This document shows positions 28,835 to 64,000 of a stretch of 64,000 nucleotides of DNA, piece after piece. The notes beneath the pieces were generated by a model. That model had not been told where the DNA came from and did not search any database. It was given only the letters and a program-made list of their open reading frames with translations. This DNA comes from Physcia stellaris (lineage: Eukaryota; Ascomycota; Lecanoromycetes; Caliciales; Physciaceae), in the NCBI GenBank assembly GCA_018902385.1, contig JABSSW010000013.1, forward strand, positions 744,001-808,000, written 5' to 3'. Both the position numbers and the translations under genes were made by a program. Positions within the stretch are counted from its first letter, which is position 1; each line of letters begins with the position of its first letter.

Positions 28835-30690
28835 CTACCGTATTACTCGCAAATGCTCATTAAAACAACGCCCATTGTTACATAACGATATACCACAAAG
28901 CCTGCATCCATATACGGTTCTAGGAGCTCGTCGTCGTCGTTGATTACGTACCAAACTGTTACCAGAAATCTCCTGTAACGGCTTCGTTACTCGTCTCGTT
29001 CTGACGGCTGTGCATTGGGCCTTACTACACACTATACAGTATTTGTCTTTGTTTCCAAGTTTCTGTATCATTCCATGCTCCAATACGGGAGCATTGTTGA
29101 CGAATTCGGCTAGAGGACTTGATCTGATACCTGGTTTCGTACCTCTAGGCTGAGTTAATCGTTCAGAATGCTCGAATAGACCGGTAATGAGGTCTTGTCT
29201 GAAAGCTTTGTGAGCTCCGTTACTTTTCAATTCGGCGTATGGTCGTTTTTCGGTTGTATTGGCAATTTTATAACAATTGACAATCGTTGTATCCAATAGG
29301 AAATGCCAGAACGATTTTCACGTTTTACTACACGCTGTTTGCGTATCGTAATAACTCCGTAATTGATCCGCTACGTCCACTCCGTTCATGTAATGATTGT
29401 ATAGATCAATAAATCTCGATATAGATAGCGTTTTGACCGATTCATTATCAAAAACGGCCCTCGAGATTCTCGCATTAATAGCCGTTTTTGCAAGCTTTCT
29501 GCGTTTTCTTTCGACGTACTGTCGTTCCGTATCGATTGATGTCATGAATAAAATCACTTGTTGATCTTTCCAAGCGAATTGCAATACGTTGGCATCGTTA
29601 ATTATCTTTTCATACAGAATACTTCATTCAATTTGCGCTTCATGCTTCAATTTCAAATCTGCAAGACACGTATCCAAACCTCTATTGAATTCTTTACGTT
29701 GTTTTTGAGCTTTAGTGCTTTGTTTTTCTTTCAATTCTTCTCGTTTCGTCTTGATAATACGTACAGTATCAACAGCTCCGAAATCAATGTGTTTACAAGT
29801 CACGATTACATCAGCCGATGTAAACAAATTGTCAATCCATACAACGCAACTGAAATCGTCCGGAATATTTTCTTGTTGTAACAAATCGAATACTACGGCC
29901 TGAGTCTTAAAATACCCCCATTCTTTCGTGTAAACGGTATTTAAATTCACAGAACCTTCGTCTTCTTTGACATGATACAATCAATCGAGTACATAATCAT
30001 CGTTGACCAATATCCATATCTTGTAATCTTCCGGTTCTGGCTTGAAAGATATGTTAACGATAATAGAAGATCTCCCCATGAAGCGTTGTATGATTTCGTC
30101 GACGACTAAATGCGTATCAATGTTCCAATACAGTTTAAAAACGTACGCAAATGCTCAGAAAAATCGTCAATTTTCTGAAATACGTTGTCATGTATCGTAT
30201 TTGCTGAAGCGAAATGAAAAAAACGATTAATTTGCTGCCAACGCTTCAAAGATATATGTTTTGAAACGAATTCATGAATAGGTTTCGTCCGATTTGCGTT
30301 CCAGAAAGCTTCAATACACGTTTCAGGATGTAAGCCCATGTATATCCAAGTAACTATGTAAGCTCGTAACTTCTTTACAGTGATAGGAAACCAAGTACGA
30401 GCGTATGATTTATCCTCTTCGTCAATTTCATGAGCTTTTCCGTATTGATTGATGTAATTGATCAGTTTTTGAAGTATTTCTTCAGTAAAGAACAGACTGA
30501 AAATGTCATACGATGTACGTGATACATGTTGAAATAATTTATCAAGATCGTGTTGCAAACCGTTCTTTATTGGAAGTGATTCGAATTGAGGTAGGGGCCA
30601 AGGCTTGAGGGGGGGTTGTTTGGGCAGTTTCGTGGCCGTATGCTCGTCATTTACGTGATCTGCATCGTCAGATACGCGATTTCGACCCAT
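28835..30690 (-). pseudogene. PiggyBac-type (DDE_Tnp_1_7) transposase, interrupted
   Basis: Begins MGRNRVSDDADHVNDE (30690). Family landmarks in order: AYIVTWIYMGLHPE, RWQQINRFFHF, THLVVDEIIQRFMGRS, PEDYKIWIL, EWGYFKTQAVVFDLL, VVWIDNLFTSADVI, FIDLYNHYMNGVDVADQLR, SFWHFLLDTTIVNCY and a C-terminal zinc ribbon (YGCRLCGISLCNNGRCFNEH). The frame is interrupted by a -1 shift at a TTTAAAC heptamer (complement of 30133-30139) and by three TGA codons (29983-29981, 29626-29624, 29320-29318), each at a position where relatives have Trp. Some ten Trp codons remain TGG. No TAA or TAG interrupts it. The element looks recently inactivated. Confidence 0.85.
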
Positions 30691-30800
30691 ATTGTATTGT
30701 ATACAAGAAATAACGAGAATTGAAAAGGTATTGAAGATGTAATGTGGATGTAAAGTAGGTAGGAAACGCGTCGTCTGATGTTTTTGGTGGGGTACGCGAA

Positions 30801-30833
30801 TGCCAAGACTTACGTGCCACGCCCGGGCATGGG
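30801..30833 (-). repeat. Right terminal inverted repeat of the piggyBac-like element
   Basis: 33 bases; the outermost 13 are identical to the left end when read inward. It lies 110 bases upstream of the transposase start. Confidence 0.85.
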
Positions 30834-31809
30834 TAGCGAACATGCTGGATAAGGTCTTGGTTCACATGAGACTATACTGTTCCGAATATCCTAAACATCC
30901 TGAATGAGTCACCGATCTTACGAATGCAATGATTGATGAAGTCGATATCTGTATACTATTTCTTTGCTGCTGAGAGAGTGGCCTTATCTCTGGACATCTG
31001 TAACAATGATAAAGCATCGTATGTGCAAAATAAGTGAAGCATACTCAGCTATCATTTGATTTTCACTATTGAGCGGGAAGTGGTCATTGGCAAAGCAAAT
31101 TCCAAGAGTGATACCTCAATTCCTGTATTTTGTCTTTGGTACACCCTATTCCGGACCCCGCTGATTACAGCAATTACTTACAAGCTCGTTTCAAGACCTT
31201 GGGTCATCAAGTAGGGTCAAAATCATCATCTATATTGAAAAAGATAGTCTACTAATCTACCGAGGCTTACCAATCCGGAACGGAAAGGCATAAGTAGTAT
31301 TGTGAAGTTCAAAAAAACCCAGCGAGAGTCAGAAGAATAACCTATACTTGACTGTACGAATGTGAAGGATACACATGAGAGATCTAAGACTTGTTTTGGT
31401 AGTATAGATGTGGATACTAGCGGAGTCACACAAGCTAGAACTATGAAACAGCGAAGTACCGGACATGATTGGATTGATTCAAAACAAAGAGTGAGGAGTC
31501 TACGTGACTCGGGCTGACGGGCTCGCGTGAAGTATCCTAACCATGGAACTGTTATCGCGCCAGCCCCTTGAGAGTATTCCTCGCAGAGATACAATGCTTC
31601 GATATCGCGAATTCATCAAACTTTGGAATACATATTGGATGTCCCTTTTGACATTCCGAGCTTGCTATCTAGGACATGCCATTAAGTCACGAGGATCAAA
31701 ATATCGATTGCATCAACGAAACGTAGTGATTCATTCACCACCTGGAAAGCTTTGGTTCTAGAGGGCTTCAATCTATGGGCGATCCAATGTAGAACAGCAC
31801 ATACAAGAC
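30834..31809. other. Intergenic region after the transposon
   Basis: About 1 kb between the transposon and the 3' end of the Trp-rich gene. Frames on both strands near 31226-31761 mirror each other and lack family features. Nothing else seen. Confidence 0.35.
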
Positions 31810-44781: not shown

Positions 44782-45158
44782 TCCAGAGGGATGAATCGTG
44801 GAAGTCCAATGCTTTGCACCGAGCTGTGTTTACAGCAACGATATAGCAGCCTAGAAATTCTGGAAGACTTCAAGTCCCTCACAAATGGTGTTCGGGGTGT
44901 CAAATTGGTACCTACACCCTCGTGCACTACTTGTGGCAAAGCCTTGCCGAAGTTTGGTAATTGGGAGTCTGAAAAATGACTCTTAACGGTTGAATGAGAC
45001 ATCAATTGTCAATGTGGAGACTCGTGCACGCGCAGTGAAAGCGCAGAACTTTCTCAAGATAGAATGCTGGCTGCGATGGGATGGTGGGGCGGAGTCCATC
45101 GACGCAGCTGCAGCCTGAGCATAATCTAGCAAGTCGTGCCGAGGCACACTTTCTGAAA

Positions 45159-45754
45159 GAGTAAGTTACTGAAATGTCACTCCCGACGTTAGTATTTACT
45201 GAAATGTCACGCGGCCCGTACGAGACTTGTTCAAGCGAAAAATGACGAGTGACCTAACTTTGTATGGATGGGCCACGGATTCCGAAGTCCCCTTCTACCC
45301 CCCCAGTATTGTTTCTCTTGCCAATTGGTTCGTTCCAAGCAAAGAGGACAGCGATTCACCCCTCAAAGGTACTTAATATTACTAACTACTGCCGCTCAAA
45401 TTCGAGTCACTCAGTCCGCTGCAATGCCTTGTCGTCGACGATTGATCGGAGACTCAACGACGTGGATGTGACATCTACAGCGATTGAGCTGTGTCAGAAA
45501 CACACTCTTCGATATCACAAAGCACGATTGACTGCTTCGCGTGTGTGTGTAAGTGTTGTTGACAATTATCTGACGTTGACTACGTACATAGTTTGGGGAC
45601 AATGATGATGTGAGGATAGAAGGGGACTCAAGAGTTGGTGGCGCATTCATACAAAGCTAGATCATTCGTCATCCTCGCTTAAACAAGTCTCGTACGGGAG
45701 ACTTGTCATTTCAGTAAATACTAGTCTCGGGAGTGACATTTCAGTAAATTGCTC
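45159..45754. mobile_element. Mutator-like MITE with long inverted repeats
   Basis: 596 bp with terminal inverted repeats of about 120 bp. The left end begins GAGTAAGTTACTGAAATGTC and the complement of the right end GAGCAATTTACTGAAATGTC; similarity continues through CCCGTACGAGACTTGTT and CTTTGTATG. Each repeat itself holds two TTACTGAAATG(T/A)C motifs. A perfect 10-bp direct repeat CTTTCTGAAA flanks the element (45149-45158 and 45755-45764), the target-duplication size of Mutator-like (MULE) elements. No transposase is encoded, so it is non-autonomous. The inner 350 bp resemble nothing known. Confidence 0.85.
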
Positions 45755-45764
45755 CTTTCTGAAA

Positions 45765-49288: not shown

Positions 49289-51560
49289 TGAGATCGTGAT
49301 CGGATAATCAACAAGAAGTAGGGTCGCGAGAATTGTAGTTTTCTTTGAGTCTTTTCGTCGAGGATCTCACGGATGTCACGAGGCCGTTCCCAATTATTAC
49401 AGGATACAGTGTAAATGCAGCGTCCACTCTGTAAAAGTCAGCTATAGTAGATCAATGGACAGTGGTATCTCACAGTGTATGGAGCAACTCTCGGAGGTCA
49501 GCCCCCCACACCCTTTTGCTTACTCGAGATGACTGGCCTGTGCATCACCTAAACCCAGGGATACACTACTGCACTTGGATATGGTTCTGTTTGATTGCGA
49601 TGGGCTGGTTGAATAACTTTGGTAATGTATATTTGAGAGATGGAGAGTTGACGTAAGCGTGTGGGGAGCTGACCGAAGAGTCTTACCCGAAAAAATACCG
49701 CCAAGAGCGCACATGTAGACCCCCTCGCAGTCTTCTCATTTCGTACGAGCATTCCTTCGGGAAACCAAAGAATGATGGCCGAAGTATGAATGAAAGTATC
49801 AGTACCAGAGCACTAACTTTGTTAGTGAAAGGAATTAGAGTATTTGCGAGGCAAAGAGCATGGCTTCAATAGACTCGTGGGACCAATCATTTCGTTGGAA
49901 GGTTCTACATCTATAACAACCAATCATTTTGTTGGAAGCTTCTACACCTATGCGATATTGGGAAAGCAGGTCTCTGTTATCGACAAGGTCCATCGATAAC
50001 GGCACACTCCCATAGATGTTTTCAAAAATCAGCTACAGCGATGCAATGTATGTTCGCAAGTTGTTGCTCCTTAGAGTCTTCTGGACGTGTTTTTCAGCCA
50101 CGGTTCTTTAAGTACTAGTTCGCATGATGTCTCGCTGAGTAGCTTGCCGAATGCCGCTACACCCGTACAACTGTTAATCCTGATGTCAGTGACGGTGACA
50201 AGCTTTGTGAGGCTTATGTCTGGAAGGTGATTGACATTGATCAGAGCTTCGCGGCAAAAATTACTCAGGGCAAACATTGCTCAGCTGGCTTTCGTACAAG
50301 TAGCAGCGATGAAGCTGGGCAACTTTGTATGGTACGTAGGCGATGCTTAGTCGTAGGACACTCACCGAATTCCAAGAGCGCTTTCCATGTCCTTCATTCT
50401 AAAGCTGAAGGTATTCTTGTCATACGAGATAGGTACATATTCTTTTTGTGTTTTCTTACAGGTCTGGAGTAGAGCAAGCTCAATTGCAAAGGGCGAGCTA
50501 CTTGCTACTATGTTGCGTAGTCCAAAGAAATTGTTTATTAAACGGATGCGTTTGGAAGGCACTTGGTGCATTATTGGTATCCGGTTAAATTGCGTTTGGA
50601 TATTCTTTAATTGCGTGATGGATGGTAACTTTCTATGGAAGCCCAGCAGGACATATATCATTGAACTTTGTTGCATGTGAGTCGAGAAATGCTGACGGCG
50701 CAGTAGGTTGAGGCAATAGAGACTTTCTACACTTTGCTGGCATTGCACGCGTCATTACGCTGTTATTGAATTGTCTGCTTTCTCTGTGTATGAAGAGACT
50801 GGAGGGTTCGAGTTTCTTAAGCGGTCGTTATGGGAGACACTGTCAATTAATATACAAAATAATAGGTGAAAGCACTAACAGGAGTTTTGGTTTATGGAAT
50901 TGTTCGATTGAAGGATGTGTCTGTGAATTGTGGTTGATTCTCGGACAAGAAAAGATCTGGAGCCTAGGCAACTGCCCCGATCTCGGACTATCCGCCTGAA
51001 ATGTCTGTACTGTTAGGTACGTACTCAGGCTGTTTGTTCAATGTTGTGGTTTCAAGCTTTCGGCTAGCATCTCGGCAGTTTACCTCACCGGTCTCGGCTC
51101 GGAACGCAGGTTGGCGGCCCAACACAAGCGCGCCAATACCGTCGCGTCTAGTTTGACCGGGACGCGTTCTTGCAAATTAAGTCGTGGCATTTGACAAAGC
51201 AAAGCTACAAGCAGCCTTGATAGATGCGCATCCTACCCACATAAGGGAAGCTGTTGTATCTGCATTTCACTTAAGTTATCCCGTTGAGAGGGTTGTGGCT
51301 GGATGAACGTACGAAAGCTCGAACAACACTTGTAACTTTCTAACAAGGTAAACGCCTGCAAAATGCAACAGCGCTTTATGTTAGGGTTAGGGTTATCAAT
51401 TATCACGGCTTTTGCCATCACCATCGCCCTGTCACCACCACCACCGCTCTGTTGTACGAAACACCACATTATTGACAATACACGATTATACGTTGAAGCA
51501 TTGATGATTTTGCGTTCGAATATACACACAATTACGTTCAAATCGCAAAAATCGAGCGTT
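49289..51560. other. 2.3-kb intergenic region with one doubtful minus-strand frame
   Basis: The best frame is 50748-50362 (minus, 128 residues, MQCQQSVESLYCLNLLRR). A possible donor (GTGAGT) near its end could lead to a short exon, but no family is recognised and the plus strand is open over the same bases. I do not call a gene. Otherwise ordinary sequence that becomes AT-rich towards the end. Confidence 0.35.
51381..51395 (+). repeat. Short interstitial telomere-type repeat
   Basis: TTAGGGTTAGGGTTA, two and a half units of the fungal telomere repeat, lies just before the transition into the AT-rich region. It may be chance, a telomerase-patched break, or a telo-box-like site. Confidence 0.6.
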
Positions 51561-51612
51561 TCGTTCAAGCAATTCTCAATTGACTTTTGATGAAATCAGC
51601 ATTCTCATTCTT

Positions 51613-51660
51613 TATATCATATCATATCATGTCATGTCATGTCATGTCATGTCATGATAT
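51613..51660 (+). repeat. Pentanucleotide microsatellite (ATATC)n/(ATGTC)n
   Basis: Three ATATC-type units pass into five TCATG units and then ATATC again, followed by related AT-rich near-repeats to about 51690. Confidence 0.9.
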
Positions 51661-51774
51661 ATCATACAATATGATATACAATATACTGTATATCTTTTAC
51701 AAGAATTCTTTTTAGCGTTTTTCTTTTTAGCGTCGTTTTTAGCTCGTCGCATGTCGCATGTCGTATATCGTTGA

Positions 51775-51985
51775 TTGCATTATTGCTTCGAGACTTGCAA
51801 CTCAACGAGACAGCGTATTACGAGACTTGCAATTCAACGAAACAGCGTTTTACGAAGTTTGCAATTCAACGAAACAGCGTATATATTACGAGACTTGCAA
51901 TTCAACGAGACAGCGTGTTACGAAATCAATTACGAAATTTGATTCAACGAGACAGCGTGTTACGAGATCAACGTGACAGCGTTAT
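51775..51985 (+). repeat. Degenerate tandem repeat, about six units
   Basis: Units of roughly 32-48 bases of the form CGAGACTTGCAATTCAACGA plus GACAGCGT(G)TTA are repeated about six times with length variation. No CC or GG occurs within the array. Two reading frames stay open through it, but the peptides are pure repeats. Confidence 0.85.
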
Positions 51986-52800
51986 CAAATTTTGAACAAT
52001 TTCTGATTCAGCTGCTCAATTTGTATGATAAATTGTATGATAATCAGACAGATGATTTGAAAACTCTTTCAAAATTTTCGTCGTATCTCAGAATTTTTAG
52101 ACTGAATACGAAATAGACTGTCTCGAAATAAGATTTATTCGCAGATCGTGCTTCTCACGCTAGAAAATCATTCTTGTACTGAGTTAACAAGACATTGCCG
52201 TTGAATATGCAACAGCGTTCTAAGAAAGAAAAACAAAAAATTAAAATTCATAAAATTGATTTCGGAATAAAGTTAATTCATGTCGATATTTGCATCAATT
52301 TCATTCTATCAACATCATGACTTGAAACAAAATGAATGAAAAAAACAGTTTGATCGCAATTGACGTGTATCAATTATGACGTTTGAATCAATGACTGTTA
52401 CAATGAAAAAAAAAAGTATTCGTACAATTCATTCGTGCTGATTAAAAATTCGTTGAAACGTGATTAATTCGAAAAATAATGACGAAAAGTATGTACAATA
52501 AAAATCATTTCATCGAATTCTTGTGTCAGAACATGATTTTGAAAGAACATTTGTTTGATAAAATCAATTGAATTTCAAGCAATGAAATCTTGTTTTCGTT
52601 GAATCAATGAATTAAAATGCTTATTCGTATCAACTCGATGAACTATGCAAAAATCAAAAAAAAAAAAAAAAAAAACAATGAAATTGATTATAACAAAAAA
52701 AATCAAAATAAATTTCTCAAAAATCGTTGAAATTTTTTTGCAACATCGTATATAACGACTTTTGCAATGAAATCGCTTCTCATTACAAAAATTCTCATAA

Positions 52801-52999
52801 TGTTGGAAATACAGCCTCCGCAGGTGTGCTGCAGTCAGGATCCAGTTGGTATAACCTGACGAAAGAAGGACTAGTGCGTCCTTGTTGGGACTAGTGCCTT
52901 GGCATCCGCACACTTCTTGTGCTTCCATCTGCATGTAACTTACCTAGAATAACGAGATTCAGAGCAATAGAATGGTAGTCACCCATGATTCTTTCAATA
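52801..52999 (+). repeat. 5' LTR of the young element
   Basis: 199 bp, TG...TA ends with TGTTGG start; one difference from the 3' LTR. A diverged solo copy lies at 22698-22868. Confidence 0.95.
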
Positions 53000-53356
53000 G
53001 GTTATGAGAACCGGGTTAGCAGCTTTCGCTACATCTAGTACCAGCTACAGCATGTCAGAGGACGAAGCGCAGTAGTAACTAGCCGCCAGGCAGTACAGCA
53101 GTGTACTCGCAGCAGTATCCAACTCCATTGGGAGTATCCAGTCTAGCCAGACCAGAACGGCCTAATTGCATCGAGCAATATCCAGTACCTTGGTACACAC
53201 GATCAGTACTATCCAGTACGCCCTCAGTTACATCGGTAACACCTATCTACCTACCTACCTACGAGCCCTTCGAAACAGTCACCTTTCGAACCCGTCACGA
53301 ACTCGCGTATCTACCTATCGAACCTCTACGCGAAACCTACCTATCACTCAGTCAGA

Positions 53357-54598
53357 ATGGCCGCTTCTACTCGTACCCCTGCGGTCACCTCCTCCGAATC
53401 GCCGCCTGCTTTCCTTCCTTGGTCACCTCTCCTTTGCACCTGCATTTCTGCGAATGACATCCTCACGAATCAATCAGTAACGCAAGATCTTCGATTCTTG
53501 TACGAGCAGCATCAACAGGGTCAAACAAGTCAGAAATGCTCTTGGTTCATTCAAGCAAAGAGGGCACAAGAAAGTTATCTGATGCGGAAGCACGAGGTGG
53601 AAGTGAAAAACAAGGTCAAGCAGGAAGCGAAGAAGTTGGCAAAGCAGAAAGAGGAGGCCCGCATAGCAGCGAAACGGGCTGAAGGATATACGTGCAGGCG
53701 TTGCAAGCATTCGGCCAGATTCGACAGCAACACCAAGCTCCACGAGCATATCCGCAGTCGGCATGCGAAGAAGCCGAAGCAGCCTGCTCAGCAATCTGTT
53801 GTTTCACCTGCTTCCGAATCGAAACCTCCTACGCCTCCTCAATCGGTAACCCCCTCACCTCCAACGTCGCCGAAACTCCTACCTCTCGCGATTCCCGCAC
53901 CAGAAATTGTACGCGAGCGTTCAGAGAGCACACCTCCTTCCGAAACCTCTTCAGTTTCCTCGTCGGTTGCAACACCAAAGAAACCGATATCTTGGGCAGA
54001 AATTGCCTCACGACCAGTCGTTGCACCGAAGCCCTCTCGTCTCCCGATTGCGACACCCAAATCGGTGTGCAAATCCTCGGAGAATGCAAGCATTGCTTGC
54101 CCGCCTACTCCGCCTCGAACCCCACCATCGAGGCCCTATTTGACCGTGGACGATCTATACCGCATGTTTGCTGGGAAGCCGAGTCCATTTGGCCTGCAGC
54201 CACGTCATAGCAAGCCGCTGTCTCCGCGCGGCCCTGGCAAATGCAGTCCTAGAAGCAATTGCAAATCTGGCCCCATACAAACGCGCATTACGTCATACTT
54301 TAATGCGGTGACCTTACCTACTTCCAAACCAGCATCAACGCATGACTCGGTCAAACAGTCGGCCCGCACGTCACCTTCCTTGTTTCGCCCTACTTCTCGA
54401 TTTGCCTCGATGCGCCCTCGTTTCTCGGCAGTCTCTCGCTCGCCTCCTTTTTGCAGGCATTGCCAAGGGCGTCTTGCCACCTATTGGCCTACTGGCTGGG
54501 CCACGCCAAATGCCACAAGAGTTGGGAACAATGGGATACCAATGGGGATGCGCTATTGGAGTTTCGCTCCTCCCCGCCCTACTTTGGGGGAGTATTGA
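53357..54598 (+). CDS. ORF of the LTR element: C2H2 finger and PIP-box protein
   Basis: 413-codon open frame inside the young LTR element. From the N-terminus: a hydrophobic/Pro-rich start (MAASTRTPAVTSSESPPAF), a basic coiled-coil (VEVKNKVKQEAKKLAKQKEE), a C2H2-type finger (CRRCKHSARFDSNTKLHEHI, ending RSRH), a Ser/Pro-rich linker, the motif YLTVDDLYRMFAGKPSPFGL, the PCNA-interacting peptide motif QTRITSYF (54278-54301), and a CRHCQG near the end. It has no Gag zinc knuckle or Pol domain. Related copies at 59.2-60.9 and 61.8-62.7 kb keep the finger, the YLTxxDLxRMF and the PIP-box motifs. Role unknown; nucleic-acid and PCNA binding are inferred. Confidence 0.65.
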   Translation: MAASTRTPAVTSSESPPAFLPWSPLLCTCISANDILTNQSVTQDLRFLYEQHQQGQTSQKCSWFIQAKRAQESYLMRKHEVEVKNKVKQEAKKLAKQKEEARIAAKRAEGYTCRRCKHSARFDSNTKLHEHIRSRHAKKPKQPAQQSVVSPASESKPPTPPQSVTPSPPTSPKLLPLAIPAPEIVRERSESTPPSETSSVSSSVATPKKPISWAEIASRPVVAPKPSRLPIATPKSVCKSSENASIACPPTPPRTPPSRPYLTVDDLYRMFAGKPSPFGLQPRHSKPLSPRGPGKCSPRSNCKSGPIQTRITSYFNAVTLPTSKPASTHDSVKQSARTSPSLFRPTSRFASMRPRFSAVSRSPPFCRHCQGRLATYWPTGWATPNATRVGNNGIPMGMRYWSFAPPRPTLGEY

Positions 54599-55825
54599 CC
54601 CCTCCTTGGGGGAGTCACTACTCTGGGGGAGTCAGAGCATGTTGTTTGTTTGTTTGTTTTGCCCGCCCGCCCTCCCTATCAACCGTTGATCGGCCTGGGG
54701 GAGCATAAAAGTTGTTGTTGTTTTAATGGATTGGAAGTCCCGCCCCTCCCACCCTGTTTCGGCCTGGGGAAGCTTGAAAAGTTGTTGTATGCTTTGTTTT
54801 ATTGTTTAACGAATATGGTAGGGACTTACCTCTGTTGTGGCTTCGTCTTGATCTAACACGACTGATCTACGATATCGCCTCCTTCCCTACTACCCTTGAG
54901 GCTTCAGTCGCCCGATAAATACGAGGGGGAGAGAGTGAGTACAGTCGCTAGAATGGACGAGGACAGTCGAGGGCAGTACAACTTCGGGGGAGTGTACTGA
55001 CCAAGATGCTCACGCTCAGATAGTACCGCTTCGGGGGAGCGTACTATGCAGTCATTACACCTCGGCCTTGCAGAGCAAGAACTCGATCAAGAAGGACAAA
55101 TAGTGCTGGAGATATCTGACCTTTTCGCATACTAATCGACCTGGTTCTCTGGCAGGGCTTAGTCAGGTCAGAAAAGCTCGAATCTGCACTCTTTGCATCG
55201 GTGTATGCCCGCAGAAGCCTGCCCGCATTCGATGCATTACCTTCCTGAACGATTTCTCGACCATCTCCAGCTTCTCGCATCGCATCGGCATACCTTATGG
55301 ACTTCCTACAGCCAAATTACGTAGGGATCGATCCATTGATGCCGCAAGAAGTACCTGAGAACCCTGAGACACAATGATGCTATCAGATCATGGTGTGACC
55401 TGCACTCTCGTTCAACATCGCAGAACTCAGGCAATTGGTACTTGCTCCATGGTGTACCGTCTATCCAATTCCAGGTACCAATCCCCGCATCGATGCTTCA
55501 CCTCATGGAGATCCAGAACACGGTCGCAATCCTTCAGATGCTCGGTCGCATGCCTTACAATTCGACCTTACGTCGTATCTGAAGCCAATAGGTCATCGGA
55601 CCTCGATTCGTTCGATTCTGCAGTCTTCGCATCGGTGTATGGCCAAGCCCTACAGGACCTACGTCATTGGGGGAGCTTGCTCGGAAGCTCCAGGCAACGC
55701 GTCGTTGGGGGAGCTACATCGCTGAGGGAGCTCCAGGACTCATCGCCGGGGGAGCTTGCACGGAAGCTCCAGACCAGGCTCGTTAGGATACAGGGCAGGT
55801 GGCACAAGCGGTTGCTGTGGGGGAG
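54585..55825 (+). repeat. Scattered polypurine GGGGGAG motifs in the 3' part of the LTR element
   Basis: TGGGGGAG or CGGGGGAG recurs at least ten times between 54585 and 55825 (for example at 54585, 54607, 54624, 54696, 54985, 55031, 55667, 55705, 55747 and just before the 3' LTR). The final copy is the polypurine tract adjoining the LTR. No protein-like frame runs through this part. Confidence 0.8.
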
Positions 55826-56024
55826 TGTTGGAAATACAGCCTCCGCAGGTGTGCTGCAGTCAGGATCCAGTTGGTATAACCTGACGAAAGAAGGACTAGT
55901 GCGTCCTTGTTGGGACTAGTGCCTTGGCATCCGCACACTTCTTGTGCTTCCATCTGCATGTAACTTACCTAGAATAACGAGATTCAGAGCAATAGAATGA
56001 TAGTCACCCATGATTCTTTCAATA
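55826..56024 (+). repeat. 3' LTR of the young element
   Basis: 199 bp, immediately after the GGGGGAG polypurine tract, followed by the CATAA target duplication. Confidence 0.95.
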
Positions 56025-57280
56025 CATAACATGATTTTATTTTTTTTCGCGCACATTTATCTTTTCATTTCGCTTTTTTTTTTCTCATTTTTTTTTTTTC
56101 GTTTTGTTTTTCGTCACAATTCGACTCGACGTCGCGTAAATTTTACGACATCATTCGAATCGAAAACACGCAAAAAGCGAAAATAAATTTTTTTTTACGA
56201 CGATTGATCGTCGTGAAATTGAAATTCAAAATTTATTTCGTTTTGAAAAAAATGTTTTTGTCGATTTTGTTTTTTCGATGACAAAAACAACATCATTCGA
56301 AACAAATTCGAAATCGAAATCGAATTCGTCGTCGTAATCGTCATAATGTTGTTCAAATTGAAAATTCTCGTTTTCGTTTTTTTTTTCGTTTTGAAACAAA
56401 AACAATGATAAGTCGTCGACAACGTTCGAACGATTATTTAATGATTCGTCGTCGTTGTCGTTTTTATTGAATCGCGCACGATCATTTGTCGTTGTTACGA
56501 ACATGTTTGACAAATAGATTTGACAAATAGATAGAACACAATCTATAAAAAAATATCTATCGTTTTCTTCTCAAAAAGTTTACTATCTTATTGAGTTAAA
56601 TCAATCTTGACGAAAAACATCAAAGTTTTGATGCAACTTCTTCGCACGTTGCACATCAATCAAGAACTTGATATGATTTTCGTCTATGTAGTCAAAACTG
56701 TAGAGTTCGATGAGAGAAATTCGATGTTGTAATATTTGTTGAATTCTGACGAAGGCGCATTTAGTTATTGAATTGCGAAGTCTCGATCGCACACAAATTG
56801 ATGAATTCAGAATTCAATTTCAACTTCATATCAACTCAAACAAAGTTTTTTTTAAAAAAACTTTCGGGCCTACTTGTAGTTGATATGATAAATGATTAGA
56901 CAAATATGTTTGAATCGAATTATGTTCTAATTTTCTGACGAGATTAACGTGATTTGAAATTTGACGTTCGCACATTGTTTACAATTTCATCATTTTGTAC
57001 GTATTTGTTTTTGCAAATTTATTGTCTTCGTCTAATTAGTCAATAATATGTCTATTCAAACACGACTCATAATATTACAATAAATTTTCAATTTTTATCG
57101 CTCGTCGAAATACGCGAACGTTCAAAAATAAAATCTCAAATCGATCAAATTCTTTTGACGAAACAAACGACGAAAAATTCTGTTGATCAAACAAATGATT
57201 TGAAAATTCTTTTGACGAAACAACGACGAAATTTTCGACGATAAAAGACGAAAATTGACTCGATTAATTTTTTTTCTTTT
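56025..57280. other. AT-rich tract 2, nearly free of CC and GG
   Basis: Continuation of tract 1 beyond the inserted LTR element. By eye only three CC/GG sites occur (near 56753 and 56866-56870), while CpG is very frequent (repeated TCGTCG, CGACGA, ATCGAA). Frames are low-complexity Asn/Asp/Phe-rich. Probably the interior of an old LTR element whose 3' LTR follows at 57281. Confidence 0.85.
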
Positions 57281-57496
57281 TGTGACGAGCGTGCATCGGT
57301 TTCAACATCTGAAATCAACATCTGATCAGTCACTAAAATTAACACTCTTATTTTATCACATCGGATGACAGGATCGAATTCCGTCTATGATCAAATCTTC
57401 TACATATGTCTTGTCAAATCTCTATGTATTTGCTTCTCACTTCGATATCCTCGTGTAATTATGTATTAGTATCATATCAATGCATGACATCTCACA
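57281..57496 (+). mobile_element. LTR copy A (hypermutated) of a second LTR family
   Basis: TGTGACGAGCGTGCATCGG to CATGACATCTCACA, 216 bp, TG...CA ends. It matches 62733-62949 along its length; the differences are overwhelmingly C or G in the other copy against T or A here. It follows directly on AT-rich tract 2, consistent with the 3' LTR of a fossil element. No clear target duplication. Confidence 0.8.
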
Positions 57497-57655
57497 TTAT
57501 ATCGAAGTCACTTTAATCTCTTCAAGCTGCTCGAGATACGACAGCTTATTCAATAAACAAAACTTCAAACAAACGCGAAGACCTAAAACGTCATCAAATT
57601 CTAGACGTGCAGCGAGAACGACGTAATTCTGCTCACGTGAGATCGAAAGCCTAGA

Positions 57656-57850
57656 TGTAAGGCGCGTGCCTAGGACTCAATAGGTAGCATAACGAGGATA
57701 TTTGATCTAGGGAGCAAATATGTACATGGAAGGCCGAATGCCAGAAGTAGGTTGTGGGCGCCAAGGCCCTAGATCGCACTAATCCCCATATGGCCTCCCG
57801 CTGATAAGATAAGGCCCTACCAAAGCTCCTCCCAAGGCATGCTCGTAACA
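57656..57850 (-). mobile_element. Solo LTR of a third family, intact target duplication
   Basis: 195 bp from TGTAAGGCGCG to GCTCGTAACA, flanked by a perfect 5-bp duplication CTAGA (57651-57655 and 57851-57855). Read on the minus strand it starts TGTTACGAGC and ends CCTTACA. It is rich in CC and GG, unlike the nearby tracts, so it escaped or postdates the mutation process. Confidence 0.8.
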
Positions 57851-57855
57851 CTAGA

Positions 57856-59233
57856 CGATTTGAGTGAGAGCGACGAAACTCTACTTCACCCAGATCACTT
57901 TCCAGAAAACAACGATTTCGAGTGTGAACTTCTACGAAAGAGCCATTCCGATGCTTTAGCGAGAACGAGATTGTTCAGCTATTGACCGAAGCGACGATTG
58001 TTTGATATTCTCGAACGTTGATACGCATCTATTAATCGACAGACTGTGAAAACGACGTTCGAAGTCACTTGTGACATCATAACCAATAAACCAGATCTAG
58101 ATCACCAAATTCAGAAAACACCATATCAGAAATACTCGACCAGAAACCGAATCAGAAACTCCGTTATTCGGCCAAAATTTTCACCTTCTCGATCGAATCC
58201 GAACCATTTATCTTCTTCGAGAATTCTTCAGAATCAAATCTATTTTACTAGCAACTCGACCATCCTCTTCTATCTATTCGATTGCTTTAATACTTTAATC
58301 AGAAAGCTGTACGAAAATAACTGTGATATCAAGTAAAAAAGTCCTCATATCTCGATTCAACATTTCGCCAATACGTCAACATCGAAGCTATTTTCTTTGC
58401 TCGAGAGCTCGCTCGAAAACATACTCATCGATCTATCAATTCGATGTCACTTTTCTACTTCGATGATAAACTCGATATCTAGTCAGAAAGTAAATATCAC
58501 TCCGAGTTTAAAAATTCTCAATATTCACATTGTCTCAATATCGAGACCACCTATCTCTTTGAAGAACATTGCGAAATTATATCTGTCTTTCTCAGTGAAC
58601 GGCCACACTCTCTGATCTCGACGATAATCTCAATATCGATCAGAAAGATTGTTCAAACCTTCATCAACGTCTAGTATTGCAACCATCCTCCTCACTCGAG
58701 AATTTTTCGATATTCTATCTATCTGTCTGGCAAATCAGCATCTGTCTTCTGTATCGATGTTGAACTCAACATCAAACCTTCAAAATTTTGCATTAAAGAT
58801 CATTGCACCCGAAACATCAAGAACCTTCTAGAACGCTCTGCATCAGCATTCGATATCAACACCATCCGAGTTGTTTGAGAATATTCAAGAATCACACCTG
58901 TTTGTCTAGCAAATCGGCCCTGATCTCCAGTTTCTGCGATGAAGCCAATATCATTTCCATCCAAAAAACTCATATCATTTCTTCAGAATCTCTTTCCCTT
59001 CCGCGTCAACGATGACATCAGAGTCAACGTGCGAAATCTCCGAAAACTCAACAATTTCTGCTTTAATTGTTTCATTTACTTCTTCTGCTTCACAGAAACA
59101 ACAGAAACAACAGAAGTTGAAATCAACTCCAAATCGCTGTCAATGATGTCAATTAGATTACGACTTTTGAGATTCACATCGTTTTCAATATTCTTCATGT
59201 GCTGTTCAAAATCAGCAAGCATACGAGTCCGCT
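57856..59233 (+). repeat. Relic sequence with a repeated module
   Basis: AT-rich but containing CC/GG. A loose module of the type TCGAGAATxxTTCAGAATC ... CTAGCAAATC recurs near 58214, 58698 and 58877, and again at 61735, together with ATCGATCAGAAAG and TCAATATCGA phrases. Frames are stop-ridden. It appears to be the 5' flank common to the PIP-box ORF copies. Confidence 0.5.
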
Positions 59234-60904
59234 TTGCAATTCCTTGAAGAGCAAATAAACGAAGACATCGAAAAATCAACAGTACTCGCTTCGTCTGCTT
59301 TGACCACTTCGTCTGCTCAACAAAAACAACAGAAATCAAATGCTCTGAAGATTGCGAAGAAGATCAAGATCAACGCGATCAAAAATGCTAAGCGAGTCAA
59401 ATCAAAAACAATAAAAGCTGAGAAAGTTGCAAAGTCAACATCAACACTTCAAAATATCGATATCTTCGATTCAACACTCACATGCGAGAATCGACGATTC
59501 AGCGAATTCGCGAAGTTCTTGCGACATCTTCAACAATGTCAGCACCTGTATCGGGAATCAGATCTGCTTTTGCTATTACTCACATGCCTATGGGGCCCTA
59601 CCTTCGATATCTGATACGATAAACAAAGCATCATGAAGTCAACATCCTTGAGTGAGTGAATTGAGACTCTGCGAGCCGATTTCGCCGATGCCCCGTTTGC
59701 AAAGCTAGCTAATTGCTCGAAAATAACCTGCATGCGATGCAAAGAGAGTTTCAACTCCAAAAACGAGCTTCGCAACCATGTCCGCAATCAACATGCGAAG
59801 AAGCCTGCCAGCAGCTCGAATCTCATGATCGATACAGCCAAATCAGCATGCAAATCCGTCGAGAAGCCAGCAGACATCTGCCTGCTCGATCCGCCTGCTC
59901 TGCAAGAATCGCTTGCCTCCTCCGCAACACCACGAAAGCACGTATCGGAATTTGAGATAACTTCAAAAGCGATTATCTCATCAACAAGTTCGGTTCTTTC
60001 GATTGCGACAGTCAATAATGTACTACAGTCGATGAAGAACGGATCAACTCAATGTTCTTCTGCTCCGTGAACCTCACCCCCAATGCTCAGTCAAATATCC
60101 AAATCAGCATTAACCTCCGAATCAATATCACCAAAGTGTTCGAATCTCCCTGTTGCGACACTCAATATCACACCGAAGTCGATGAAGAAACTACCAGCCA
60201 ATTCACTTACACCTCCGATTTCACCTCCTCAAACACCTGTACCGAAACACTTGAAATCCTATCTGACTATGAATGATTTGCACCGCATGTTTGCTGAGAA
60301 GCCTAAACCATTTGGCCTGCGACAGCATCAAAGTCGTTGTCGCTCTCCGCACGACTTTGACCTTCGTCAACCGGATCGACCAGCTTCGAAACAGCCTTAC
60401 CTCACTATCGAAAATCTATCCAGAATGTTCAGTGAAAATCTCAAAAGAAAGAACCTAATTTGCAGCCAAAAGAGTTTGTTCGAAGGCCGAAACCACGTAT
60501 CTTCCCGAGCATCCTCAGGCCAAGTGCAAATCACCGCCTACTTCAAGCCTACAGCCAATCAGAAGCCGCCAATTAGTCAAGCCTCGAAAGATTCAAAACC
60601 GAAGACTTCGAAGCAGCACATGCCTGCGGAATCAATCCGCACTGCCTCCAGCAAAAGCTTGCCTGAGGAATCTGCCAATTTACCATACAAAATGCCTGTT
60701 GTCTCCTGCACCCACTTGAAGCCTGCTGTCGAAACTCCTTTCTTCATTTCTATACTTCTCCGCCTTCTTCCGGCCTTCCTCCTTGCTCTCGCATTCGTTT
60801 CGACCATTTCCGCTGCAAGAATGAGCTGTATAAGCGCCTATCAACAAGCCATTTCGGCCATTGGCCGTGCCAATATTGAAATTGTCGCTTCGGAACGAAG
60901 CTGA
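59234..60904 (+). mobile_element. Fossil copy of the PIP-box ORF family (copy 2)
   Basis: Broken relative of the ORF at 53357-54598, lying in several frames. Recognisable parts in order: a Lys-rich coiled coil, the IDIFDSTLTC module with FLRHLQQCQHLYRESDLL, a C2H2 finger (CMRCKESFNSKNELRNHV, then RNQH), YLTMNDLHRMFAEKPKPFGL, a second YLTIENLSRMF, and the PIP-box QVQITAYF (60521-60544). It ends with GCTTCGGAACGAAGCTGAG, a sequence also found just before the LTR at 62733. Treated as a fossil; age unknown, but clearly older than the 52.8-kb element. Confidence 0.65.
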
Positions 60905-60956
60905 GAAGAGACGAGAAATAAACTGCTCGAATATCCAGTCACGAAACACCTTCGAA

Positions 60957-61325
60957 AAAAGATTTATTGCATACACGTTCTACTGAATGATTCGTACACA
61001 TCGACTATCGCATGCGTTCAAATATCGATGCGTTAATCGTTGTTACCCGGGTTTTACTAATACAGTGAAACTGCTTGTCTCATGATATAATCGATCTAAG
61101 GTTTTCAATTTGCTTACTAATGACCGCCGGAGCTACTCGTAAAAGATTGTATGAACTGACCACCTTGCAAAAGATTCATTACACTCATGCTCTGTTGAAT
61201 GCAATGTACACACCAACTCTCGCATATGCGTAAGTATCAATGCATTAAGCGCTGTTGCGAAGATTTTACCAACATGACGAAACTGCTCGTCTCATCGTAT
61301 AATCGACCTGATGTTGCAAAAATTC
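60957..61325 (+). repeat. Diverged tandem duplication, about 210 bp
   Basis: The segments 60957-61110 and 61167-61325 align: GATT(T/C)ATT...CTCTGTTGAATG/TTCTACTGAATG, TGTACACA, CTCGCAT, ATCAATGCATTAA/ATCGATGCGTTAA, and GAAACTGCT(T/C)GTCTCAT with TATAATCGA. Located between the two fossil ORF copies. Confidence 0.7.
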
Positions 61326-61798
61326 AACGCCTACATTAATGCGAAACATCTACATTAATGCCTTCATTACTTGCAAAAAGCTCGAGTCTCCGATTCTTTA
61401 CACTCTAAACTACATTATTCTAAACTCTTACAAACCCATCGAAACATGTCTTCGTACATGCTTCAACCATAGCCTGTAGCAAGCAGTTGGACCGAGCACT
61501 GCGAACTCCATTTCGCAACAGAGCTTCGTCGACCAAATTCTAATTTCTAGACCACCACCAACGAATCTCGATTCCTCCCTTCACACGCCTACTCAGATCA
61601 ATACACCTACCTACACCCTCGTCGAGGTACGCGAGCTCTAAATAAGACCTCACTTCAATACATTACGTCACCGAAGAACGCCTGTACCAGAAACCCTGTC
61701 ACAACCCCTTCAATATCGAAGCCATCCTCGCTGTTCGAGAATCCTTCAGAATCCTACCCAATTACCTAGCGAATCGTTTATCCTCTCCTATTTTTACG

Positions 61799-62672
61799 AT
61801 GCATTGTCAATACTGTGACCGCGAGCTTCCTGAAACGCTTACAATTAGTCAGCACTATCAGCGATCTACCAGATGCCCTGAGGCTATTCGGCATCGAATC
61901 GCACAATACATTCAAGAAGCTCAAAAACAAGCTGAATTGACCGAGCAAAAGACTGCAAAGCGAGCAAAAATTGAGACCATTGAAAATGCCAAACCAACAC
62001 CAACACCTTGTGATATCGATATATTTGATCCAACACTCATATGTGATATCCTGGAATTTGACCTAAACAACAAAGTGATAGTCTTCCTGCAACACCTTCA
62101 GCAAATCCAACACCAATATCGAAAGTCAGATGTGCTCGACCTATTGTCCAAATGCGTTCGGGACCCTGCTTTCGCATGATTCAATAGTCAATCAAGCTTC
62201 AACACCATACAGAACTTCGACAAAGGCCTGACCTGTGCATTTCCTACATTCGCACCGAAAACGCTCTGCTTCTCCGCAGCGTTTCGACGCCCGACCACCT
62301 GCCCCATATCAGTCTCGCATCACCGCCTACTTCCTGCCTGCAACCAACCAGAAGGCACCGATTAGTCAAGATCTGAAAAACCCGAATCCGAAGAGTTTTC
62401 AGCAGCATACGCCTGCGAAACCGATCCGCCCTGCTTCTGCTCTGCCAGAGAAATCGGCCTTTTCGCCATACAAAAAGCCAAGCATCTCCTACACCTCGCT
62501 GCCGCCTTCGCATGACCTCGACCTACGTCTCCGCCTACGTCTCCGCCGCCCTTTCGATCTCCGACCCCAGATCACGTTTGTTGCACCTGCTTCGATCATT
62601 CCAGCTTCCGCTATGGCCCGTTCAACTACCCACGCCCTAGCCAACGATACCCCTCGAACCGCCGGCCGATGA
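61799..62672 (+). mobile_element. Fossil copy of the PIP-box ORF family (copy 3)
   Basis: Two open stretches. The first (61799-62179) starts MHCQYCDRELPETLTISQHY, a C2H2-like finger, then a helical part and DIDIFDPTLICDI with FLQHLQQIQHQYRKSDVLDL. The second (62235-62672) has the PIP-box QSRITAYF (62310-62333). The middle finger and YLTxxDLxRMF region seen in the other copies are missing. It ends 60 bases before the LTR at 62733 with the purine-rich GAGAGAGAACGAGAAG, which may be a polypurine tract. Broken; treated as a fossil. Confidence 0.65.
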
Positions 62673-62732
62673 GAGGAGTGAAAGAGATGAATTAGTCGCT
62701 TCGAAACGAAGCTGAGAGAGAACGAGAAGTAA

Positions 62733-62949
62733 TGTGACGAACGTGCACCGATTCCAACACCTGGGGCCAACACCTGGCCAGTCACTAGGGCTAACACCCT
62801 TATCTTATCACACCGAGTGGCAGGGCCGGGCCCCGCCTATGACCAAACCTCCTACATATGCCCTGCCAGACCTCCTATGTATTTGCTCCCCACTTCGATA
62901 TCCTCGTGTAGTTATGTATTAGTACCATATCAATGCATGACATCTCACA
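62733..62949 (+). mobile_element. LTR copy B (not hypermutated) of the second LTR family
   Basis: 217 bp from TGTGACGAACGTGCACC to CATGACATCTCACA, rich in CC and GG. It can be read either as the 3' LTR of an element whose 5' LTR is copy A (57281-57496), given the purine tract before it, or as the 5' LTR of an element running off the right edge, given the gag-like frame that follows. Confidence 0.8.
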
Positions 62950-64000
62950 CTTTTTATCATTTTCAATTTTTCATTTTCAATTATAACTCGAAATCATCAC
63001 GAAACAATTTTTTCGAATTTTCTATTTCGATGAAACAACGTCTCAAAACGTTACGCGTCAACGTGAATCGTATGCTGCATAAAATTAACGATAATTTTTT
63101 TGACGAAAATTTCGCTGATCAATTCAAACGTCGTCGATTTGTATCAACGATCGATTTCATAAAAGTGAAAAATGAAAAAATCATTCATTTTCTGAATATC
63201 GTCATCATCGATCAATTGAAATGATGAATCAATCATAAAATCGTCGACTTTTTAAAGAAATTTGATCGATTACGCATCGATCGTGACAATTATTTGAACG
63301 CTTTGACTCAATATCAAAATTTGTACAATATTGTCAACGTCGATCGTGACGAATTGATCAATACGAATGTCGAATTAAATGAAATTCGTCGAAAATTGAA
63401 TATTTTGAAAAGCGAATACGAAAAACAACGTGATTTATTTTTGATCAAGCAAAAAAATTACATTTTTTTGAAAAAAAATCACGACGTTTTGCTGATCAAA
63501 ATTCGCGATCGTGCACGAAATTCGAACGTCGACGATGAAAAAAACGACGATAAAATCAACGTAATTAATTTTTTTCAAAAGAACAAACGACGTTTCAAAA
63601 CACACTCAGATTTTTTTAAATTTATCGATGAAATAGAATTCATTTGACGTGTTTGAAAAACAAAAATACACGATAAAATGACGATCAACGTTGATCATTA
63701 CGACACGAACATGATCGCAATCATTATTGTGATTGATTGAATTGAAAATGATGTCGATGATCACATACAATCGATTCGTGATATTGATATGAATCATTTC
63801 AAAATTTGACATATGATGTTGAAATTTTTGAACATTATTTACGAAAATTTTGATTTCAAACGCAATATGCGTAATCAATTTCGAGCATTAATCATGAATA
63901 TTCAAAATTTTCAATTTTTCTATTTTATTTTTTTTCGTTTTAGCAATTCAATTGACTATAACAAAATCATCAAAATCGAAAAGTTGATGAACAAAATTTT
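62950..64000 (+). mobile_element. AT-rich tract 3: interior of a fossil LTR element with a gag-like frame
   Basis: From about 62930 to the end of the window I find no CC and no GG at all, yet over 40 CpG in the first 540 bases (63001-63540). Plus-strand frames at 63030-63224 (MKQRLKTLRVNVNRMLHKIN) and 63294-63647 (coiled-coil, Lys/Asp-rich, IRRKLNILKSEYEKQRDLFL) look like a degraded Gag-type coiled-coil protein, but no defining motif is present. The element continues beyond the window. Fossil, heavily mutated. Confidence 0.6.

Follow-up and report, generated by a model that had tools for sequence, protein, structure and literature searches.

As given in the accessible sections of the reports cited here, RIP in Neurospora crassa depends on RID and changes cytosines in the order of preference CpA>CpT>CpG>CpC (PMC5496416), and in the Tad1 copies of this fungus CpT changes outnumber CpA changes, according to the authors of RIPCAL (PMC2621366). 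RIP of Trichoderma reesei acts first on CpA and CpG at about equal levels, and CpT is hit more than CpC (PMC5496416). A comparison of ten fungal genomes revealed CpA, CpT, and CpG signatures, with a RID gene in every genome that showed CpA or CpT, and its authors linked three CpT-biased species (Botrytis cinerea, Sclerotinia sclerotiorum, and Magnaporthe oryzae) to a RID motif of their own; the term CpC is absent from that text (PMC4352252). The inter-nuclear SNPs of Rhizoctonia solani AG8 have genome-wide mean distances of 214 b for CpC, 370 b for CpG, 422 b for CpA, and 491 b for CpT (PMC4014442). The repeats of S. nodorum are depleted of CpC and GpG, and also of CpA, CpG, and TpG, and a CpC index was defined in RIPCAL (PMC2621366). 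In Monilinia repeats, CpC-to-TpT double changes stand alongside classical CpA RIP (PMC8959702).

The window analyzed here, a 64,000-nucleotide stretch of Physcia stellaris DNA, contained transposon-rich DNA in which the target of C-to-T mutation was CpY (a cytosine followed by a pyrimidine), with CpC ahead of CpT. The dense C:G to T:A transitions on both strands resembled those of N. crassa RIP, but here CpC was hit more than CpT and no change was seen at CpA or CpG, with CpC moved from the last place to the first. In many copies of B. cinerea, S. sclerotiorum, and M. oryzae the context is likewise shifted, to CpT, but these species also carry the CpA signature, whereas here CpA was untouched and CpC led. 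Transposon-linked C-to-T changes with a 3′-base rule are also found in Microbotryum and other basidiomycetes of the CpG type and in Tuber, where CpG is joined by CpA (PMC4352252, PMC2621366); CpG is the main target of the Microbotryum type, but it was spared here (0/16 in the LTRs of element B, described below). T. reesei is another ascomycete whose RIP context differs from that of Neurospora, although its preference for CpA and CpG is unlike the one found here. R. solani AG8 shares the C-to-T excess, and CpC is its commonest class by raw count, but it was described by its authors as CpG-biased, with CpA, CpG, and CpT also hit, in genes as well as repeats (PMC4014442). Sparing of CpA is not described for R. 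solani AG8, S. nodorum, or Monilinia in the accessible parts of the reports (PMC4014442, PMC2621366, PMC8959702). Among the listed titles and abstract openings and the text passages covered, none reported CpC-led, CpA-sparing RIP, and the search for “CpC to TpC” or “CpC dinucleotides” together with “repeat-induced point” returned 0 papers; a CpC-led species may be described in the 2011 survey of ascomycete RIP by Clutterbuck.

One old tract and two inserted elements

Dinucleotide analysis of positions 62930-64000 revealed 0 CC and 0 GG, where about 44 were predicted from base composition, in agreement with a sequence-only reading of this DNA made earlier. The same reading had noted over 40 CpG in 63001-63540, where 46 were counted, and common CpA and TpG, for which the odds in 62930-64000 were 1.26 and 1.31; the other odds were 3.24 for CG, 0.37 for TA, 0.27 for CT, and 0.18 for AG. 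It had also given five exceptions to the CC/GG loss at two further tracts; the near-absence held there, but the number became six overlapping CC and GG dinucleotides (2 + 4). The GC content was 28.5% in 62930-64000 and 28-30% in the three tracts, versus 47% in the whole window. Base composition alone, which that reading had considered as a cause of the low CC/GG, did not explain it: mononucleotide shuffling of 62950-64000, repeated 20,000 times, gave a mean CC+GG of 41.8 and a minimum of 19. The CpA depletion of normal RIP, also considered there, was seen in none of the three tracts within the window.

The features of this region were as follows.

51466-52800, no strand assigned: old CpY-mutated tract, piece 1, which lies to the left of element A and ends in CATAA (52796-52800)
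52801-56024, plus strand: element A, an LTR element in the tract, with LTRs at 52801-52999 and 55826-56024
56025-57280, no strand assigned: old CpY-mutated tract, piece 2, between elements A and B, with CATAA at its start and CTTTT at its end
57281-62949, plus strand: element B, an LTR element with LTRs of 216 and 217 b (TGTGA...TCACA) and CTTTT on either side
57281-57496, plus strand: 5′ LTR of element B, CpY-mutated after insertion, with 41 transitions relative to the 3′ LTR
57497-62732, plus strand: interior of element B, with patchy CC/GG loss
62733-62949, plus strand: 3′ LTR of element B, almost free of mutation, with the second CTTTT copy directly after it at 62950-62954
62950-64000, plus strand: old CpY-mutated tract, piece 3, continuing past the window end and carrying a decayed reading frame

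The three CC/GG-poor tracts were pieces of one older tract, about 3.6 kb of which was in view, because the gaps between them were the LTR elements A and B, each with a target-site copy on either side. Neither this splitting by insertions nor the depletion of CpT/ApG had been brought out in the sequence-only reading. Piece 1 contained one CC and one GG versus 61.5 expected, and its CT+AG was 86 versus 140.7; piece 2 contained one CC and three GG versus 55.5, with CT+AG of 61 versus 131.6 and 85 CG; and piece 3 contained 0 CC+GG versus 42.1, with CT+AG of 24 versus 106. The old tract thus retained between roughly one quarter and three fifths of the CpT/ApG expected. Cytosine was present before A and G, nearly always gone before C, and mostly gone before T, and TC was enriched (odds 1.53). 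The CpG odds of the three tracts were 2.0 to 3.4, and the CpG loss expected of 5-methyl-CpG decay was not found; the high CpG needed no separate cause because the remaining cytosines were mostly those before purines. Two-state segmentation returned 51467-52803, 56009-57287, and 62951-63999, together with a short weak stretch at 30084-30278. The log-likelihood ratios were 173 for piece 1 and 255 for piece 2, but the segmentation had been trained on parts of the tracts later found, including most of piece 2, and its scores are descriptive rather than an independent test. The longest CC/GG-free run outside the three tracts was 241 b, within element B, and the longest outside both the tracts and element B was 131 b.

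Element A was young and unmutated. Its 199-b LTRs were flanked on either side by the target repeat CATAA, as is typical of LTR elements, and the alignment showed a single difference between them, a CpC-to-TpC change on the minus strand. A G-rich run lay ahead of the 3′ LTR, and an ORF occupied 53240-54598. The CpY index of its interior was 1.08, versus 0.88 in the gene-bearing stretches. The Pfam search of the ORF gave no confident match, and among the stretches fitting its pattern, 2 in viral contigs and 40 in genome contigs, none was confirmed as a relative. Diverged internal stretches were common to A (53240-54598) and B (59747-60333), 59-76 b long at about 75-81% identity and with more found by tblastx, and the LTRs of the two elements were different. 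Judged from these sequences, A and B may possibly be non-autonomous elements with the same captured gene.

The unmutated LTR ends abutted CC/GG-free DNA directly and the borders were sharp, so either mutation of the old stretch preceded the insertion of A and B or the process halts at such borders. Within piece 1, a 41-b match recurred in five irregular copies, spaced 32-42 b apart, at 51784-51966. Two tandem telomere-type TTAGGG units at 51381-51392, about 75 b ahead of the left edge of the tract, could be due to chance or to a healed break.

Target bases of the mutator

The two LTRs of one LTR element are identical when inserted. Those of element B, which together with the 5-b target duplication CTTTT identified it as an LTR element, differed by 41 substitutions, all of them C:G/T:A transitions, and by two single-base gaps. 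To count the contexts, both strands were read with the 3′ LTR, taken as the less changed copy, as the reference; its use as the ancestor was an assumption, the pair being unrooted with no third copy, and the T-rich state of the 5′ LTR agreed with the neighboring tract. The 5′ LTR was the changed copy in 38 of the 41 differences, and the other three, in the reverse direction, were all at CpY. The results showed that 31 of 37 CpC and 7 of 23 CpT sites were changed, whereas CpA and CpG were not changed at all (0/52). In the shorter of two alignments, which differed in length by a few bases, the changed sites were 0/35 for CpA and 0/16 for CpG (0/51 together), and in the longer one CpA was 0/36. 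The contrast between CpY and CpR (38/60 versus 0/52) had a Fisher p of 1.3e-14, and that between CpC and CpT a p of 6.5e-5, although sites within C runs are not independent. Both strands were hit, with 24 C-to-T and 14 G-to-A changes in the 5′ LTR, a split that was not significant (binomial p=0.14); clustered C:G to T:A changes on both strands, a trait of RIP, accounted for all 41 LTR substitutions.

The base on the 3′ side determined which cytosines were changed. Within CpY, changes followed every 5′ base (A 10/15, C 9/23, G 14/15, and T 5/7), whereas TpCpR was never changed (0/13), nor was the second C of CpCpR (0/15), and a run of at least two C ahead of a purine always retained its final C (15 of 15). 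The sequence-only reading had proposed a C-to-T mutator with a CpC target: a mutator sparing CpA and CpG was borne out by these LTRs, but CpC was not its only target. Its view that the footprint was not that of canonical RIP agreed with our results, since the CpA preference with TpA gain was missing (CpA 0/35 in the LTRs, TA odds 0.37 in 62930-64000).

In simulations, the CpY rule fitted the tract best of ten rules; the LTR counts were independent of the simulation rates. For this rule, 45 unmutated 1-kb stretches of the window received random C-to-T changes at CpC and, at a lower rate, at CpT, and the resulting sequences had a GC content of 0.286 (0.283 observed), odds of 2.60 for CG (3.34), 0.36 for TA (0.37), and 1.50 for TC (1.53), and 0 CC/GG. 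Over the 16 odds ratios, the RMS of the CpY rule was 0.22, and those of the nine other rules were 0.62-1.24. The rules rejected in this comparison of ten were CpC-only (0.62), CpA-only, CpG-only, CpT-only, Neurospora-like, and all-C, the APOBEC CC and TC rules based on the 5′ base (0.85 and 1.16), and the UV-type YpC rule (1.24). The comparison somewhat favored CpY because its rates were set by hand after the data had been seen; alternative CpY rates behaved similarly.

The interior of element B was at an early stage of the mutation process. In 57482-59481 (ten 200-b bins summed), CC+GG was 89 versus 169 expected and CT+AG was 247 versus 234, and one bin (57682-57881) was without depletion. 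The CC/GG loss was found in the left 2 kb, where CpT was near normal, and around 60.9-61.5 kb. The mutation load was heavy in the 5′ LTR, and the 3′ LTR was almost clean although it adjoined CC/GG-free DNA. This difference may stem from a partner copy with partial homology or from a conversion event that replaced the 3′ LTR, and it is not predicted by a RIP that treats all copies alike.

The indices in common use did not register these mutations. The RIPper uses TpA/ApT (product) and (CpA+TpG)/(ApC+GpT) (substrate), with recommended thresholds of product >=1.1, substrate <=0.75, and composite >0, according to the accessible part of its description (PMC6714961). The values of product, substrate, and composite were 0.34, 1.45, and -1.10 in 62950-64000, and 0.48/1.04/-0.56 and 0.51/1.44/-0.94 in the other two pieces, and by these thresholds the tract was unmutated. 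Such indices score a rise of TpA and a fall of CpA, and a CpY mutator would therefore be invisible to them.

Piece 3 carried a frame on the plus strand (62928-64000) of 357 codons with 6 TGA, 0 TAA, and 0 TAG, and only 0.17% of 20,000 Markov simulations had any of the six frames free of TAA/TAG. When it was read through, the frame contained no Gly and no Pro. A CpY mutator would remove the Gly (GGN) and Pro (CCN) codons from coding DNA, turn Trp (TGG) into TGA, and spare CAA, CAG, and CGA, as in this frame; the Gln and Arg codons would therefore give no stops, unlike in RIP of the CpA or CpG type. The frame may be a decayed gag of a Ty3-type retrotransposon. A match to gag or capsid was unlikely because every Gly and Pro codon had been lost: Pfam gave no match at E up to 10, the PDB sequences gave one match to an unrelated protein (E 1.3), none of 17 pattern-matching stretches in viral contigs was confirmed, and the fold model was unusable (mean pLDDT 40.7). 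No comparable frame was found in pieces 1 and 2.

Candidate agent and competing explanations

The cytosine methyltransferase of RIP is credited with setting the target base. The locus is likely to reflect a repeat-directed CpY C-to-T mutator acting on a nest of transposons, a RIP-like process with a putative enzyme of the RID/DIM-2 class whose choice of the 3′ base was altered. Such a mutator would have acted on the nest in more than one episode. On both strands it would convert cytosines to thymines only where a pyrimidine comes next, beginning with CpC and proceeding to CpT, and it would not touch CpA or CpG. Under its repeated action, CC/GG would vanish, CpT/ApG would become rare, CpG would rise to two to three times expectation, and TpA would be low. 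The direction and order of the changes are strongly suggested: the oldest tract would have been mutated, A and B would then have inserted, and the 5′ LTR and left part of B would have been mutated afterwards, with A almost untouched. The agent would be a cytosine methyltransferase of the DNMT1 class, of the RID/Masc1 or DIM-2 type, with altered recognition of the 3′ base, and its targets would be recognized by their repetition; the RID motif peculiar to the three CpT-biased species is a precedent for a change of context (PMC4352252). RIP depends on RID or DIM-2 and takes place before meiosis. The process is better called RIP-like than a proven member of RIP: it does not behave as canonical CpA-type RIP, and it agrees with RIP in the wider sense in its transitions, its action on both strands, and its transposon setting.

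Slow decay of silenced repeats is an unlikely source of the same changes. Non-CpG methylation by a DIM-2-like enzyme during the vegetative phase, followed by deamination of 5-methylcytosine, would need no RIP event, and the graded, unfinished state of the interior of element B is in keeping with it. DIM-2 methylates all CpN with a preference for CpT, as stated in the accessible part of the report (PMC13297926), but an all-context enzyme preferring CpT would not change CpC first (31/37) and leave CpR at 0/52. Moreover, the time span was probably short, because only two single-base gaps accompanied the 41 transitions of the LTR pair.

An AID/APOBEC-type deaminase working on cytosines of single-stranded DNA (retroelement cDNA or exposed strands) is very improbable, although pure C-to-T clusters in retroelements would fit it and CC is the target of APOBEC3G. 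The target of these enzymes is set by the 5′ base, but all four 5′ bases were followed by changes before Y and none before R, and the 5′ rules of the CC and TC type fitted poorly (RMS 0.85 and 1.16). Both strands were hit, and the LTRs of element B diverged after insertion. Dipyrimidine damage of the UV type has hardly any claim: CpC and CpT are dipyrimidines and its products are C-to-T, but TpC is also a dipyrimidine, yet TpCpR was 0/13 and TC was enriched, the UV-type simulation had an RMS of 1.24, and damage is not expected to halt at element borders. Equally negligible is an AT-rich composition or foreign insert (organelle or virus) naturally without CC/GG, which the GC content of the tract would suit, but none of the 20,000 composition-matched shuffles reached so low a count and the same kind of change separated two copies of one sequence, the LTRs of B.

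The repeat-directed CpY mutator, if true, may have been overlooked in fungi scored as free of RIP. It seems rather more probable than its opposite that some ascomycetes have a defence mutator with a reversed 3′-base rule, in which the next base must be a pyrimidine (with CpC ahead of CpT) and a purine prevents the change, invisible to the usual indices. TpA/CpA indices can give false negatives, as a tract of 28% GC with zero CC/GG scored as unmutated, and a measure independent of context would be needed in surveys of fungi with RIP. An enzyme in which the rule is naturally reversed would reveal which part of RID or DIM-2 reads the 3′ base.

The rest of the window

The gene-bearing DNA at 1-29 and 32-51 kb was unaffected, with the CpY index of 0.88 given above; Pfam matches among the window genes included PigL_N/ankyrin and DUF7580, and no RNA families or tRNAs were found in the window. 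Within the window, where the old tract was present in one copy, the strong tracts lay around or in the LTR elements and a weak one lay over a transposase remnant.

29201-30600, minus strand: weaker CpY signature over and beside a transposase remnant (remnant ORF 30106-30861)

The remnant ORF matched DDE_Tnp_1_7 of Pfam (E 8.3e-14). In the seven 200-b bins of 29201-30600, the counts seen and expected were 63/96 for CC+GG, 113/163 for CT+AG, and 80/46 for CG. The signature at 29-31 kb was diluted, and CpT was as depleted as CpC, so the CpC-first order was not displayed there. Elsewhere, an inverted-repeat pair at 45156-45757, with 83-b arms that were 86% complementary and 436 b apart, is possibly a small DNA transposon.
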